64,000 nucleotides of DNA from Massilia rubra. GTDB taxonomy: Bacteria; Pseudomonadota; Gammaproteobacteria; Burkholderiales; Burkholderiaceae_D. Positions 26,098-53,743 of the stretch are shown here, piece by piece (position 1 is the stretch's first letter; every line of letters begins with the position of its first letter). Made by a program: the position numbers and the translations under genes. The stretch covers positions 124,001 through 188,000 of the forward strand of contig NZ_VUYU01000011.1 of NCBI RefSeq assembly GCF_011682065.1. The letters are read 5' to 3'. The notes below the pieces were generated by a model that worked only from the letters and a program-made list of their open reading frames with translations, had not been told where the DNA came from and ran no database searches.

Positions 26098-26192
26098 ACC
26101 AATGGCGCTTTCTTTTGTAAGGATGGGACCACTTTTCCCGGTCAATGGCGTCATTTCGCCACATCATGCAGTTGTCGTATTTGCATATAACG

Positions 26193-50086: not shown

Positions 50087-50136
50087 TGTAAGGAACTGAA
50101 AGGCACGCCGGACAATCGCGTGGGCCGCTTTACAAT
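50087..50136 (+). promoter_or_regulatory. Candidate promoter of the bufferin operon
   Basis: TGTAAGGAAC (50087-50096) looks like the GTAA-type -35 box of ECF sigma factors, about 96 bases before bufA. TACAAT (50131-50136) could be a sigma70 -10 box. Neither has an unmistakable partner element, so the promoter type is open. The region starts after the YjfB terminator, so bufA needs its own promoter. Confidence 0.35.
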
Positions 50137-50191
50137 CGCCTTCAACCCGGCAGTTCCTGTTCCACTTCCATCATACTCAAGGAGATCCACG

Positions 50192-50470
50192 ATGAACAAA
50201 CGTCAAGCACTGATCGCAGCCGCCCTCGCCGGCGTGTGCGCTGTTTCCTCCGGCATGGCTGCCGCGCACGATGCGCCCATGTCCAAGGGCGACAAGGCCG
50301 ACAAGGAGAAGTGCTACGGCATCGCCAAGGCCGGCCAGAACGATTGCGCCAGCGCGACCGGTTCGCATGGCTGCGCCGGGGCATCGACCGTCGACAAGGC
50401 CCCGGAAGAGTGGAAATGGGTGGCCAAGGGCACCTGTGAAAAATCCGGCGGCAAACTGTCCGGCAAGTAA
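50192..50470 (+). CDS. bufA1: DUF2282 family bufferin-type precursor (BufA1-like)
   Basis: The start at 50192 with AAGGAG upstream gives 92 residues. A signal peptide ([20 protein letters not shown], cleaved near AAAHD) targets the periplasm. The mature part has the DUF2282 pattern with four Cys (41, 52, 61, 82): [28 protein letters not shown] and [13 protein letters not shown]. Published bufferins of this family are ribosomally made, modified at Cys by DUF692 MNIO enzymes to thiooxazoles, exported, and help tolerate copper. That the downstream fusion protein modifies this peptide is inferred from gene order: its ORF begins 13 bases after the bufA stop. No DoxX-type BufD gene is adjacent. Confidence 0.88.
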
Positions 50471-50482
50471 GCCAGCTATTTC

Positions 50483-52153
50483 ATGAGGGGCGGGGCCTTA
50501 CCGGTCGATCCTGTTGCCGGTTCCGGAACCGGTCCCGCCTCGCCGGGCGCCGGGGTCGGCTTGCGCGCCCCCCATTACCGCCAGTTTCTCGCGCAACGGC
50601 CCGCAGTCGGCTGGCTTGAAGTCCACACCGAAAACTTTCTCGACCGCGCTGGCTGGGACTGGCATGTATTGCAGGAACTGCGCCGCGATTATCCCATCAG
50701 CCTGCACGGCGTCGGCCTCGGCCTCGGCTCGGCGCGCGGGTTTTCGACGTCCCATCTGGACCGTGTCTGCGCGCTGGTCGAGCGGGTCGAGCCCATGCTC
50801 GTGTCCGAACACCTGTGCTGGGGCGCCGTCGCCGACCGTCAACTGAACGATTTATTGCCGATGCCGCTCAGCGGCGCCGCGCTCGATTTGCTGTGCGCAC
50901 GGGTGGAGCAAGTGCAAGACCGGCTGCATCGGCGCATTTTGCTGGAAAATGTCTCCACGTACGTGCGTTTTAACGACGATACCATGAGCGAAGCCGAGTT
51001 CATGGCCGAGCTGGCCAGCCGCACCGGCTGCGCCTTGCTGCTCGATGTGAACAATCTCTACGTCAACCAGTGCAATCACGGCGAAGACGCGCTGGCGGCG
51101 ATCGCGGCGATCGCCCCCGGCAGCGTGGGCGAGATCCACCTGGCCGGCCATCTGGTCACGCCGCAGGCAGTGGTCGATCATCATGGCGACGTGGTGGCCG
51201 CGCCCGTGTGGGCCCTGTATGAAGCGGCGCTGGCGCGCTTCGGCCGCCTGCCGACCCTGATCGAATGGGATACCGACGTGCCCGCGCTCGACGTGCTGCT
51301 GGGCGAAGCGCGCAAGGCGCAGCGCATCGCCAGTGCTTACCCGGTGATCAACGTCGCCAACCCCTGGCGCGGCCGCCACGGCCAAGTGCTGGCAGCGGAC
51401 GCCCTGGCCGATACCCAGCAATGTTTCGCGCAAGCCCTGTTCGACTACGACCGCGAAGCCGAGGCGCTGGCGCAGTTCAAGGGCGGCGCCAATGCCGACC
51501 GCTTCGGCCTGTACCGGGGCAACCTCGGCGTAACCTGGAACAAAGCCCTGTCGGCCGCCTGCCCGGTGCTGCGCCAACTGGTCGGCGAGGAGTTTTTCGG
51601 CGCGCTGGCGCGGGCCTACGGCATGGCCCATCCCTCGCTCGACGCCGACCTGAACCGTTTTGGCGCCAGTTTTGCCCGCTTCCTCGACGGTTTTCCCCAT
51701 ATCGCCGATTATCCTTACCTGCCGGATATGGCGCGACTCGAGTGGGCGGTGCACCGCGCCCATTACGCGCCTGACGCCGAACCCATCGGCGCCGACGCGC
51801 TGGCCGCCCTCACGCCAGACCAGTTCGAACAGGCGCGCTACGCCCTGCATCCGGCCTGCAGCCTGATTGCGTCATGCTGGGCGGTGGTGCCCCTGTGGCA
51901 AGCGCACCAGCCCGACAGCGGCGTCGACTTTCCGGCAGCCATGGGTCGCCCCAGCGCAGCCCTGGTCGCCCGCCCGCGCTGGAAGATCGAACTGCTCGCG
52001 CTCACCCCCGCGCACGCAGGCGCGCTCGCCACGCTGGCCGGGGGATATACAATGGGTGAGGCGCTCGATGCCGCCTTCGCTCTCGATGAGCAATTCGACA
52101 TCGGGGCGCATCTGGCGCAGTGGATTGCGCTCGGCATCCTGCTGGCGCCCTGA
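50483..52153 (+). CDS. bufBC: Fused DUF692 (MNIO, BufB) - DUF2063 (BufC) bufferin maturation protein
   Basis: This is one uninterrupted 556-residue frame. Residues ~25-285 form a DUF692 multinuclear iron oxygenase domain with the expected metal-ligand segments: EVHTENFLD (48-51), SLHGVG (His75), SEHLCW (Glu109, His110), LLENVSTY (Glu155, Asn156), [10 protein letters not shown] (Asp188), EIHLAGH (His219, His223) and IEWDTD (Glu261, Asp263). Residues ~312-556 match DUF2063: [40 protein letters not shown] and [18 protein letters not shown]. These two families are normally separate adjacent genes (bufB, bufC). No stop or frameshift lies at the junction. It should oxidise the Cys of the BufA1-type peptide. 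The start has no clear ribosome site; ATG 50483 follows bufA by 12 bases. Confidence 0.87.
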
Positions 52154-52269: not shown

Positions 52270-52791
52270 ATGTCAATGAGCGCTGATCAAGTTATCGCCG
52301 AGTACCAGAGCAATGGCAATGCTGTTTCCCCCGCAGTCGCAACAGCGCTGCTCGCGCCGGAAGTGCGGCGGGCGATCTACAAGCAACTGGTCGGTGCGAC
52401 CCTGGCGCCGTACCGCGCACTGCTGATCGAGTTGCTCGACGAGGAAATCAACCTGCGCACAGCCCTCTGGGACCACATCGTGCAAGACGATATGGATTAC
52501 TACGAAGGCATCTACCAGTGCGCTTTCCTGTTGTACCGCGCCGGCGACGTGGCCGACAGCTTGCTGCTGTGGAAAGCCAAGCACATCAACATGGATGTCG
52601 GAACCTTGCTGGGGGCCGAGTATTTCGTCGGCGCCGGGCTGGACGTCACCATGGCCTACCTGTCGAACTCGCCGATGCCCGAAGCGGCCGAGCTCGCCGA
52701 TTACCTCCAGCAATGGTTCGAAAAGCCGGGCGCCATTGCCTGGCAGGAAGCGTGGGAGCAGGAGCGCGCCTCCGCCATCGCCAACGCCTGA
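52270..52791 (+). CDS. Hypothetical protein, possible partner of the LRR-NTF2 protein
   Basis: This 173-residue acidic, mostly helical protein (for example AIYKQLVGATLAPYRALLIE, LLDEEINLRTALWDHIVQDD, YYEGIYQCAFLLYRAGDVAD) has no recognised domain, signal peptide or membrane segment. A TATAAT box sits 29 bases upstream and the next gene begins seven bases after its stop, so the pair form a small operon. The size and acidic helical character fit immunity-type proteins, which is only a resemblance. Confidence 0.65.
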   Translation: MSMSADQVIAEYQSNGNAVSPAVATALLAPEVRRAIYKQLVGATLAPYRALLIELLDEEINLRTALWDHIVQDDMDYYEGIYQCAFLLYRAGDVADSLLLWKAKHINMDVGTLLGAEYFVGAGLDVTMAYLSNSPMPEAAELADYLQQWFEKPGAIAWQEAWEQERASAIANA

Positions 52792-52798
52792 GCGGGCC

Positions 52799-53743
52799 AT
52801 GCTCGATCTTCCCGTACGGCCAACTTTTCTGGACTTCCATGAGCGCGCGTTCAGCGCCGACGACATTGCGTTCCTGCTCACCAAGCCATCGATCCGCGGC
52901 CTGACCTTTACCGGCTGCGCCATCGGCGATGAGGAAATCGGCGCCCTGTGCGCCTTGCCCAGGCTGGAACGCCTGTGGCTCGCCGGCAGCGCGGTCACGG
53001 ACGCCGTCCTGCCCGCCATCGCCCGCGTTCCCGCCCTGAACTGGCTGGTGCTGGACAACACCGGCATCACCGGCGCCGGCCTCGCGGCCCTGGCCGGACA
53101 CGTCACATTGCGCAATTTGTCGCTGCGCAACACCCGGGCCGACGATGCCTGCGTCCCGTACATTGCCCGCATCGCGCCCCTGTCGAATGTGGACCTGGCG
53201 GGCAGCGCGATCACCCGCGACGGCCTGCTGGCGCTGGCTGCCCATCCGGCCGTGGGCTTGTGTGCGGACGACGCCCTGGCGCCCGGCCTGGCGGAAGAGT
53301 TCGTGCGCGAACAGCGCCGCCTGGCCAGTCGCACGCCGCCCGGCTTCGTCGCCGGCGCGGGCGAGGAGACGGCCGCGCTTGCCGCGCTGCGCGGTTTCTG
53401 GGACGGAATCAGCGCCTGGGAAACCCAGCTCGCGCTCGACAAGGCGACAGACCCGCTCTTCACCGACTGGCGCCAGCCGGTCCGCAGCGCCATTTTTGCG
53501 CAATATTGCACGCCCAGGCACAGCACCTCGGGGCAGGCTGTCGCGTCCAGTTTCGGCATGCCGCCCACGTATGCGCGGCACAGCGTCATCGATGTCGAAT
53601 GGCTGACGGCGCGCAAGGTGTGCGTGTACACCACCCACCACGCTCACTTGCAGTGCCGCTTCGTGCTCATGAAAAAAGGCAACACCTGGTTGCTCGATCA
53701 CATGCAAAACTTGTTCGATGGATGGAAGAAGGGGTATTTGTAG
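52799..53743 (+). CDS. LRR and NTF2-fold immunity-like protein
   Basis: The protein has 314 residues from MLDLPVRPTFLDFHERAFSA. Residues ~30-150 contain leucine-rich-repeat-like units (IRGLTFTGCAIGDEEIGALC, LERLWLAGSAVTDAVLPAIA, LNWLVLDNTGITGAGLAALA, LRNLSLRNTRADDACVPYIA, LSNVDLAGSAITRDGLLALA). The C-terminal ~110 residues (from LFTDWRQPVRS) end VEWLTARKVCVYTT...FVLMKKGNTWLLDHMQN, the beta-sheet ending of NTF2-fold immunity proteins. No toxin gene is adjacent. It lies seven bases after the preceding hypothetical gene. Confidence 0.7.
   Translation: MLDLPVRPTFLDFHERAFSADDIAFLLTKPSIRGLTFTGCAIGDEEIGALCALPRLERLWLAGSAVTDAVLPAIARVPALNWLVLDNTGITGAGLAALAGHVTLRNLSLRNTRADDACVPYIARIAPLSNVDLAGSAITRDGLLALAAHPAVGLCADDALAPGLAEEFVREQRRLASRTPPGFVAGAGEETAALAALRGFWDGISAWETQLALDKATDPLFTDWRQPVRSAIFAQYCTPRHSTSGQAVASSFGMPPTYARHSVIDVEWLTARKVCVYTTHHAHLQCRFVLMKKGNTWLLDHMQNLFDGWKKGYL

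Follow-up and report, generated by a model that had tools for sequence, protein, structure and literature searches.

A predicted two-gene bufferin operon with BufB and BufC fused into a single maturase

Two adjacent genes in the window, the stretch of 64,000 nucleotides of Massilia rubra DNA analysed here, very probably constitute a bufferin (captophorin-type) operon consisting of bufA and a natural bufB-bufC fusion, which would encode a self-contained 1:1 maturase for a copper-chelating peptide. This reading is based on the domains of both proteins, the conservation of the MNIO motif, purifying selection on both halves of the fused protein, the recurrence of the fusion in other genomes and the match of the two halves by fold to the two chains of TglHI, all of which were computed in this study. 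The locus can be regarded as a useful natural variant of the known bufferin system, and on the basis of its sequence its function is predicted with good confidence.

Precursor, fused maturase and proposed mechanism

The original prediction described a DUF2282 precursor with a signal peptide and four mature cysteines 12 bases ahead of the fused gene. This description proved exact down to the coordinates (Table 1), and both ORFs lie in the same frame. The precursor (P0001) is the one match to PF10048 in the whole genome at E ≤ 0.001, and its N terminus appeared signal-peptide-like by eye. In addition to the mature Cys 41, 52, 61 and 82, a further residue, Cys 16, is located inside the signal peptide. 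No NCBIfam model scored over its cut-off with P0001, and the sole match up to E = 1 was BufA2 with 22.7 bits (cut-off 60). By eye, no obvious ribosome-binding site was seen ahead of the ATG of the fusion. Downstream of the fusion, an ORF of 173 aa (window 52270-52791) without a Pfam match is kept beside the fusion in four relatives (L035, L036, L037 and L068), and the ORF after it (52913-53743) contains an Imm-NTF2 domain, an NTF2-fold immunity-protein domain (50.6 bits).

Table 1. Positions of the features in the window and the evidence for each of them
Feature	Position	Strand	Evidence
ECF-like two-block motif: TGTAAGGA (50087-50094), 15-base spacer, GGACAA (50110-50115)	50087..50115	+	score 12/14; putative promoter
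TACAAT, sigma-70 -10-like hexamer in invariant block	50131..50136	+	8 aligned rows (6 distinct); putative function
AGGAG, likely ribosome-binding site of bufA	50180..50184	+	sequence; invariant in 8 aligned upstream rows
bufA, DUF2282 (Buf1-type) bufferin precursor, 92 aa, signal-peptide-like N terminus, core Cys 41/52/61/82	50192..50470	+	Pfam DUF2282 (PF10048), 80.5 bits (cut-off 22.4)
bufBC, single MNIO-DUF2063-RRE-like fusion, 556 aa	50483..52153	+	Pfam, NCBIfam; AlphaFold2 mean pLDDT 89.1, pTM 0.87
MNIO (BufB) domain, residues 22-283	50546..51331	+	PF05114, 330.8 bits (cut-off 25); NCBIfam MNIO_BufB (NF050167), 355.9 bits (cut-off 310); conserved residues
variable linker, residues 284-306 (limits set by us)	51332..51400	+	low pLDDT, high dN/dS, variable length and letters
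DUF2063 domain, residues 311-401	51413..51685	+	PF09836, 68.7 bits (cut-off 27.2)
RRE-like C-terminal domain, residues 402-556	51686..52150	+	fold match; no Pfam match

The first half of the fused protein (P0002) contains a complete MNIO (DUF692) domain that scores over the cut-off of the MNIO_BufB model, in agreement with the predicted BufB type. In 153 aligned MNIO domains, D188, N191, H219, D232, H234 and E261 have a frequency of 1.00 (to two decimals), and H75 and N190 one of 0.99; the iron-binding residues are presumably among these motif positions, as in the family generally. The genome contains two MNIO matches and one match to PF09836 at E ≤ 0.001, the latter being the fusion itself. 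The presence of DUF2063 in the second half, which had been named as a point of possible failure, is supported by the PF09836 score, which rises to 70.3 bits when the C half is searched alone. The prediction had extended DUF2063 over residues 312-556, however, and this applies to residues 311-401 only, as the Pfam search left residues 402-556 without a hit up to E = 1, and these residues resemble an RRE domain by fold. The RRE-like assignment is one by fold, since no PDB chain was retrieved up to E = 1 with a sequence profile built from the C half. An AlphaFold2 model of residues 305-556, calculated with 59 relatives (mean pLDDT 93.1), was compared with the PDB by Foldseek and matched only three chains at E ≤ 0.001, namely TglI (8hi7_A and 8hci_A) and NGO1945 (3dee), with E 1.1e-5 and TM 0.60 by target for 8hi7_A and E 1.1e-4 and TM 0.67 by target for 3dee. 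NGO1945 has been described as a typical DUF2063 + RRE partner (PMC12452194). Judged by this model, the C half is a whole partner protein composed of DUF2063 and an RRE-like domain.

Structure prediction of the fusion alone, as had been proposed, yielded a confident full-length model (Table 1) whose best fold matches were TglH, 3bww and MbnB, with the TglI chains further down the list. The model is weakest at residues 1-17 and approximately 291-300, the latter having the lowest pLDDT within the chain. The pTM of 0.87 suggests a defined arrangement of the two halves, although a single-chain model is blind to docking on the own versus another molecule. Membership in two related systems was rejected. 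For the HvfBC/oxazolin type, the HvfB and HvfC models of NCBIfam reached 211.5 and 34.6 bits with P0002 (cut-offs 360 and 142), and P0001 contains no EGKCG repeat; for methanobactin MbnBC, the MbnB model reached 37.7 bits (cut-off 325) and MbnC gave no match up to E = 1. Compared with the Buf1 operon, the locus has the four-Cys DUF2282 precursor, the bufferin-type MNIO and the DUF2063 + RRE partner (RRE by fold). It has one ORF instead of separate bufB and bufC genes, which is a variant feature and not a functional criterion, and it lacks the gene for DoxX (BufD), which is frequent but not universal in such operons.

In bufferins, copper is bound in the periplasm by thiooxazoles derived from cysteines, and in the Buf1 class the central cysteines are modified, whereas the outer two form a disulphide (PMC12452194). 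Modification of the related fontiphorin costs 4 H per Cys (PMC13097082). By analogy to these characterised relatives, from which the chemistry, the choice of cysteines, export, copper binding and docking as in two-chain complexes are transferred, we propose that the bufferin operon has been reduced to two genes, bufA and fused bufBC, and that BufBC would work as a self-contained maturase in the cytoplasm. The C half of BufBC, DUF2063 together with the RRE-like domain, would bind the N-terminal signal region of the precursor and dock on its own MNIO domain, which would hold the iron cluster. According to a preliminary result, the signal peptide is part of the recognition by BufB-BufC (PMC12452194). 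The MNIO domain would then convert the two central cysteines of BufA, Cys 52 and Cys 61, to 5-thiooxazoles, each conversion removing 4 H, Cys 41 and Cys 82 would pair as a disulphide, and the modified peptide would be exported by Sec to chelate copper in the periplasm. The fusion would set the enzyme:partner ratio at 1:1, and two chains would no longer have to find each other.

For HvfBC, it was reported that the active mixed-valent iron state depends on the partner and that the two proteins bind weakly, while an engineered HvfB-HvfC fusion without linker gave markedly more product than the co-expressed pair (PMC13419390). A natural fusion would give this benefit by itself. The original prediction held that the fusion directly supports a BufB-BufC complex; it corroborates such a complex but does not reveal it, as enzyme-partner complexes were previously shown for FonBC, a stable heterodimer by native MS, and NgoBC (PMC13097082) as well as for HvfBC (PMC13419390). 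Among the alternatives to our proposal, the one that survives best is a system with the same bufferin-like make-up whose target is a metal or stress other than copper; it differs from the proposed mechanism in the last step only. Although related gig operons and bufferin-MerC fusions suggest other metals, we consider this unlikely, as a four-Cys DUF2282 precursor is characteristic of Buf1, a class with demonstrated copper binding in Caulobacter (PMC12452194).

Comparison with six close orthologues (three named Massilia species and three more genomes of the genus) and three more distant ones yielded dN/dS values of 0.060-0.089 and 0.10-0.17, respectively, for the MNIO half, 0.119-0.309 and 0.32-0.41 for DUF2063, and 0.098-0.196 and 0.37-0.46 for the C-terminal domain. 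For the 23-residue linker, values of 0.27-1.66 and 0.69-1.80 were obtained, which are rough ratios because the linker is short. Both halves are under purifying selection, whereas the linker is constrained weakly if at all. Among relatives, the linker varies in its letters and ranges from approximately 10 to approximately 80 residues by profile limits, and no shared sequence motif was seen by eye in the linkers compared. The existence of linkers of about 10 residues, this lack of a common motif and the activity of the engineered HvfBC fusion as a single chain (PMC13419390) make it very improbable that the fused chain is cut in the linker into BufB and BufC, with two chains as the working enzyme, even though a variable, weakly constrained segment modelled with low confidence would suit a cleavage site.

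DoxX and the region upstream of bufA

When a collection holding a single genome for each species was scanned, 158 relatives of P0002 were found, of which the best 80 were kept; as these were ranked by their match to the whole fusion, the set is biased towards full-length fusions. At E 1e-5, the BufD-type DoxX of the relatives has no match among the ORFs of the window, and the one PF07681 match of the genome lies on another contig. Among the best 80 of the 158 loci, DoxX is encoded close downstream of the fusion in 32 (Pfam-confirmed for four examples), whereas it was not found in the other 48 within the at least 1.9 kb of downstream sequence searched. The designation of the locus as a minimal variant was thus correct with respect to the absence of DoxX, but this absence is shared with 48 of the 80 relatives and reads as a loss.

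Upstream of bufA, the two-block pattern TGTAAGGN-N14/15-CGACTA reached a score of at least 12/14 in 36 of the 80 loci compared to about 0.1 per 80 in single-base shuffles, a score flattered by the derivation of the consensus from the same 80 loci. By its sequence, the motif looks like a promoter for an ECF sigma factor. In the window, the first block is intact and GGACAA is a degenerate form of CGACTA, from which the close relatives likewise depart. All 8 upstream rows that were aligned, of which 6 are distinct, share an unchanged TTTACAAT block. A motif score of at least 12 was found in all 32 loci with DoxX and in 4 loci without it, three of which have two mismatches in the second block; in 44 of the 80 loci, DoxX is missing and the motif score stays below 12. 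The association between DoxX and the motif is strong (Fisher p ~3e-18), with the restriction that related species are not independent, and ties DoxX to a possible stress-regulated form of the operon. Before other MNIO genes, scores of at least 12 occurred in 25 of 113 rows (22 split and the fused L206, L215 and L216), as compared to 0.8 in shuffles. Read most simply, this would go back to an ancestral arrangement in which an ECF promoter was followed by bufA, bufBC and doxX; DoxX and the promoter would then have been lost together in several lineages, and the promoter in the window would be an intermediate of this joint loss.

In the genome itself, the ECF-like pattern was found at 2 sites versus 1 in a reversed control, and for this reason no regulon is claimed. 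The only other genome match to TGTAAGGA-N14/16-SGWCWA, at window positions 26116-26145, may be due to chance, as one match was also found in the reversed control. In L214, ORFs that appear by eye to encode a sigma factor and an anti-sigma factor lie upstream of bufA and are followed by a DUF2282-like precursor and a fused maturase. This sigma factor has no relative in any of the best 80 of the 158 loci or among the ORFs of the window, and none of the 4 neighbours checked on Pfam is a sigma-factor gene. ORFs similar to the L214 sigma factor occur near L008, L167, L170, L171, L184, L188 and L196.

The lack of DoxX and the degenerate second block, here and in close relatives, could also be taken as signs of a decaying operon whose other genes are on the way out. 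We judge this to be very improbable, because both halves have dN/dS values far below 1 in the comparisons with close relatives, the upstream block and the ribosome-binding site are conserved, and precursor and fusion persist in the 44 relatives that lack DoxX and score below 12 for the motif.

Distribution and origin of the fused form

In all of the best 80 of the 158 loci, both halves are encoded in a single ORF and a DUF2282 homologue lies upstream on the same strand; its four-Cys core was detected by motif search in 77 and the same four cysteines were seen by eye in the other 3. According to the record titles, 75 of these loci belong to Oxalobacteraceae and 2 to Burkholderiaceae, 2 are without family, and one is a MAG titled Bifidobacterium breve. 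This last record (L107) contains a fusion of the Oxalobacteraceae type and is probably mislabelled or a contaminated bin; a stretch of its precursor ORF (LAAC) resembles that of a lipoprotein. In a GTDB sample of the family, at least 150 of 392 genomes have a fused-type match among the matches listed. In 143 of them the match is near full length with an open frame free of stops, 6 have one stop in the matched stretch and one reaches residue 432 only. One of the six (L141 in genome G070) was looked at and is fused, with 544 aa. As a lower bound, the search of family genomes suggested at the outset therefore yields at least 143 of 392 genomes with an open full-length frame, and the implied peculiarity of the fusion to this locus has to be abandoned. 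Within the Massilia/Duganella/Rugamonas/Janthinobacterium/Pseudoduganella group the fusion is common, and it also occurs elsewhere. An artefact, that is, a frameshift or missed stop joining two genes, was rejected and has a negligible probability: one indel could in principle join bufB and bufC where they overlap in different frames, as in the split sisters L152, L155 and L156, but the open frame recurs in 80 of 80 loci from many species and assemblies and in at least 143 of 392 family genomes, with purifying selection over both halves.

Outside the family, both Pfam domains score over cut-off in one frame in L185, L201, L203, L206, L207, L212, L214, L215 and L216, and in L186, L204 and L205, likewise from other families, both halves were detected by our own profile. 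These 12 loci, 7 from an order sample (399 genomes) and 5 from a class sample (369 genomes), give no frequency because they were examined for their long frames. Similarly, 9 of 20 regions chosen for long frames or full-length matches are fused, which is not a prevalence. Most other MNIO genes examined are split, and a Burkholderia glumae plasmid carries a typical split operon with DoxX. In L183, L202, L210 and L222, bufB and bufC are in the same frame and 0-3 bases apart, so that a stop-codon change could fuse them; as ORF starts were taken as the earliest possible, overlaps and gaps are approximate.

Two trees of MNIO domains were calculated, one with 153 rows (56 fused, 86 split, 11 unlabelled) and a more careful one with 96 of these rows picked by hand (24 fused, 67 split, 5 unlabelled). 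Rows were left unlabelled when no partner gene was seen in the available flank, and L206, with a DUF2063 match of 37.8 bits, was labelled fused by hand. The 153-row tree includes 38 of the best 80 loci and leaves out L001-L004 as well as MNIO matches below 200 bits. By parsimony, the fused/split label changes at least 8 times on both trees, a count that does not separate gain from loss; starred branches force 5 changes in the 153-row tree and 6 in the 96-row tree, and shuffled labels need 44 and 21-22, respectively. One single change for all fusions was rejected, since 8 are needed and 0% of 200 bootstrap trees with 96 rows, a bootstrap that had not settled, have 1. From these trees, the fused form seems to have arisen several times.

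The fusions of the Oxalobacteraceae type form one clade in both trees (44 rows with SH-aLRT 93 in the 153-row tree; 13 rows with 98/88 in the 96-row tree). Besides this clade, the starred group around it comprises L152, L155 and L156, which are split, and L214, which is fused; as L214 lies in an open fork beside the clade, a separate origin of its fusion cannot be claimed. Long branches in the 153-row tree lead to L214, L215, L216, L206 and the split L197. By eye, DUF2282-like four-Cys peptides were recognised upstream of the fusion in L185, L186, L201, L212, L214, L215 and L216, and six-Cys peptides resembling Buf2 in L203, L205, L206 and L207, while neither kind was seen upstream of L204. 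With both peptides preceding fusions, the fusion seems to have occurred in Buf1-like as well as Buf2-like systems. In L186 and L201, two DUF2282-like precursor ORFs were seen by eye before one fused maturase, the farther one being longer and containing 6 Cys.

The second MNIO of the genome is encoded on the minus strand of contig C24 of G000 (147366-148793; L002 844-2274) in an ORF of 476 aa, with a match of 131 bits. Behind the MNIO domain, the same ORF shows weak similarity to DUF2063 (17.6 bits, cut-off 27.2), and the protein is perhaps a second, divergent MNIO-partner fusion. Of 43 other relatives searched, 6 encode it at 82-92% identity. The gene is preceded by an ATP-grasp (R2K) gene and by a small ORF that contains GCPACTSG and lacks an obvious signal peptide, and this MNIO may be related to the adjamnio-1 family of PMC12452194.

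Relation to known systems

Taken together, these observations permit a wider and more tentative reading, which we put forward as possible but less likely than not to hold in full: MNIO-partner fusion would be a recurrent route, taken several times in Buf1-like systems and in six-Cys Buf2-like systems and also by the divergent second MNIO, and single-chain maturases would be self-sufficient because the partner would be more than an adaptor for the substrate and would have to sit permanently on the MNIO domain to hold the iron cluster active. In Oxalobacteraceae, the fused enzyme would have been uncoupled from an ancestral ECF-type stress promoter along with the loss of DoxX. Repeated fusion provides comparative evidence for the 1:1 complex as the working unit. 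The weak binding between HvfB and HvfC hampered work on these proteins and was overcome by an artificial fusion (PMC13419390). Natural fusions represent ready-made, evolution-tested single-chain maturases with fixed stoichiometry, their linkers ranging from about 10 to about 80 residues. With them, it can be examined directly how the partner affects the iron cluster and whether it is needed in cis.

The statement that known operons encode BufB and BufC separately fits the literature seen, apart from one DUF692-DUF2063 protein that was counted in 2009 (PMC2954202). This protein has the same domain order with the MNIO domain N-terminal, and it was listed as one of 216 DUF2063 proteins, with neither organism nor interpretation in the portion available. 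The available sections of PMC12452194 describe precursor fusions and an MNIO-nitroreductase fusion and contain no MNIO-DUF2063 fusion; the available part of PMC13419390 lists MovX and ChrH as exceptions without mentioning any natural fusion of HvfBC or BufBC. The abundance of the fusion, its repeated origin and its tie to bufferin precursors were not found in the literature searched, as far as accessible, while the fusion as such had been glimpsed before (PMC2954202).

Among characterised systems, the Buf1 operon bufABC(D) of Caulobacter vibrioides and others (PMC12452194) shares with the locus the Sec-type four-Cys DUF2282 precursor, the MNIO_BufB family, the DUF2063 + RRE partner and the order A-B-C; in the window, BufB and BufC are one protein, DoxX is missing and no sigma-factor gene was seen. 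The TglHI and MbnBC holoenzymes (8HI7, 8HCI, 7FC0, 7TCR) likewise combine a catalytic MNIO with a substrate-binding partner, and the halves of the fusion match TglH and TglI by fold, but these enzymes consist of two chains, differ in substrates and chemistry, and have 12-24% identity to the fusion in fold alignments. MovX, ChrH and MNIO-nitroreductase proteins also carry an extra domain in the same chain as the MNIO, which is an RRE or winged-helix domain in MovX, an unknown domain in ChrH and a nitroreductase in the others, DUF2063 not being named in the available parts of these reports (PMC13419390, PMC12452194, PMC13060819). Another counterpart in architecture is the engineered HvfB-HvfC fusion (PMC13419390, a preprint of July 2026), in which the C terminus of the MNIO was joined to the N terminus of the partner in the same order; it is lab-made, without linker and acts on an oxazolin (EGKCG) precursor, whereas the fusion described here is natural, has a variable linker and is preceded by a DUF2282 precursor.
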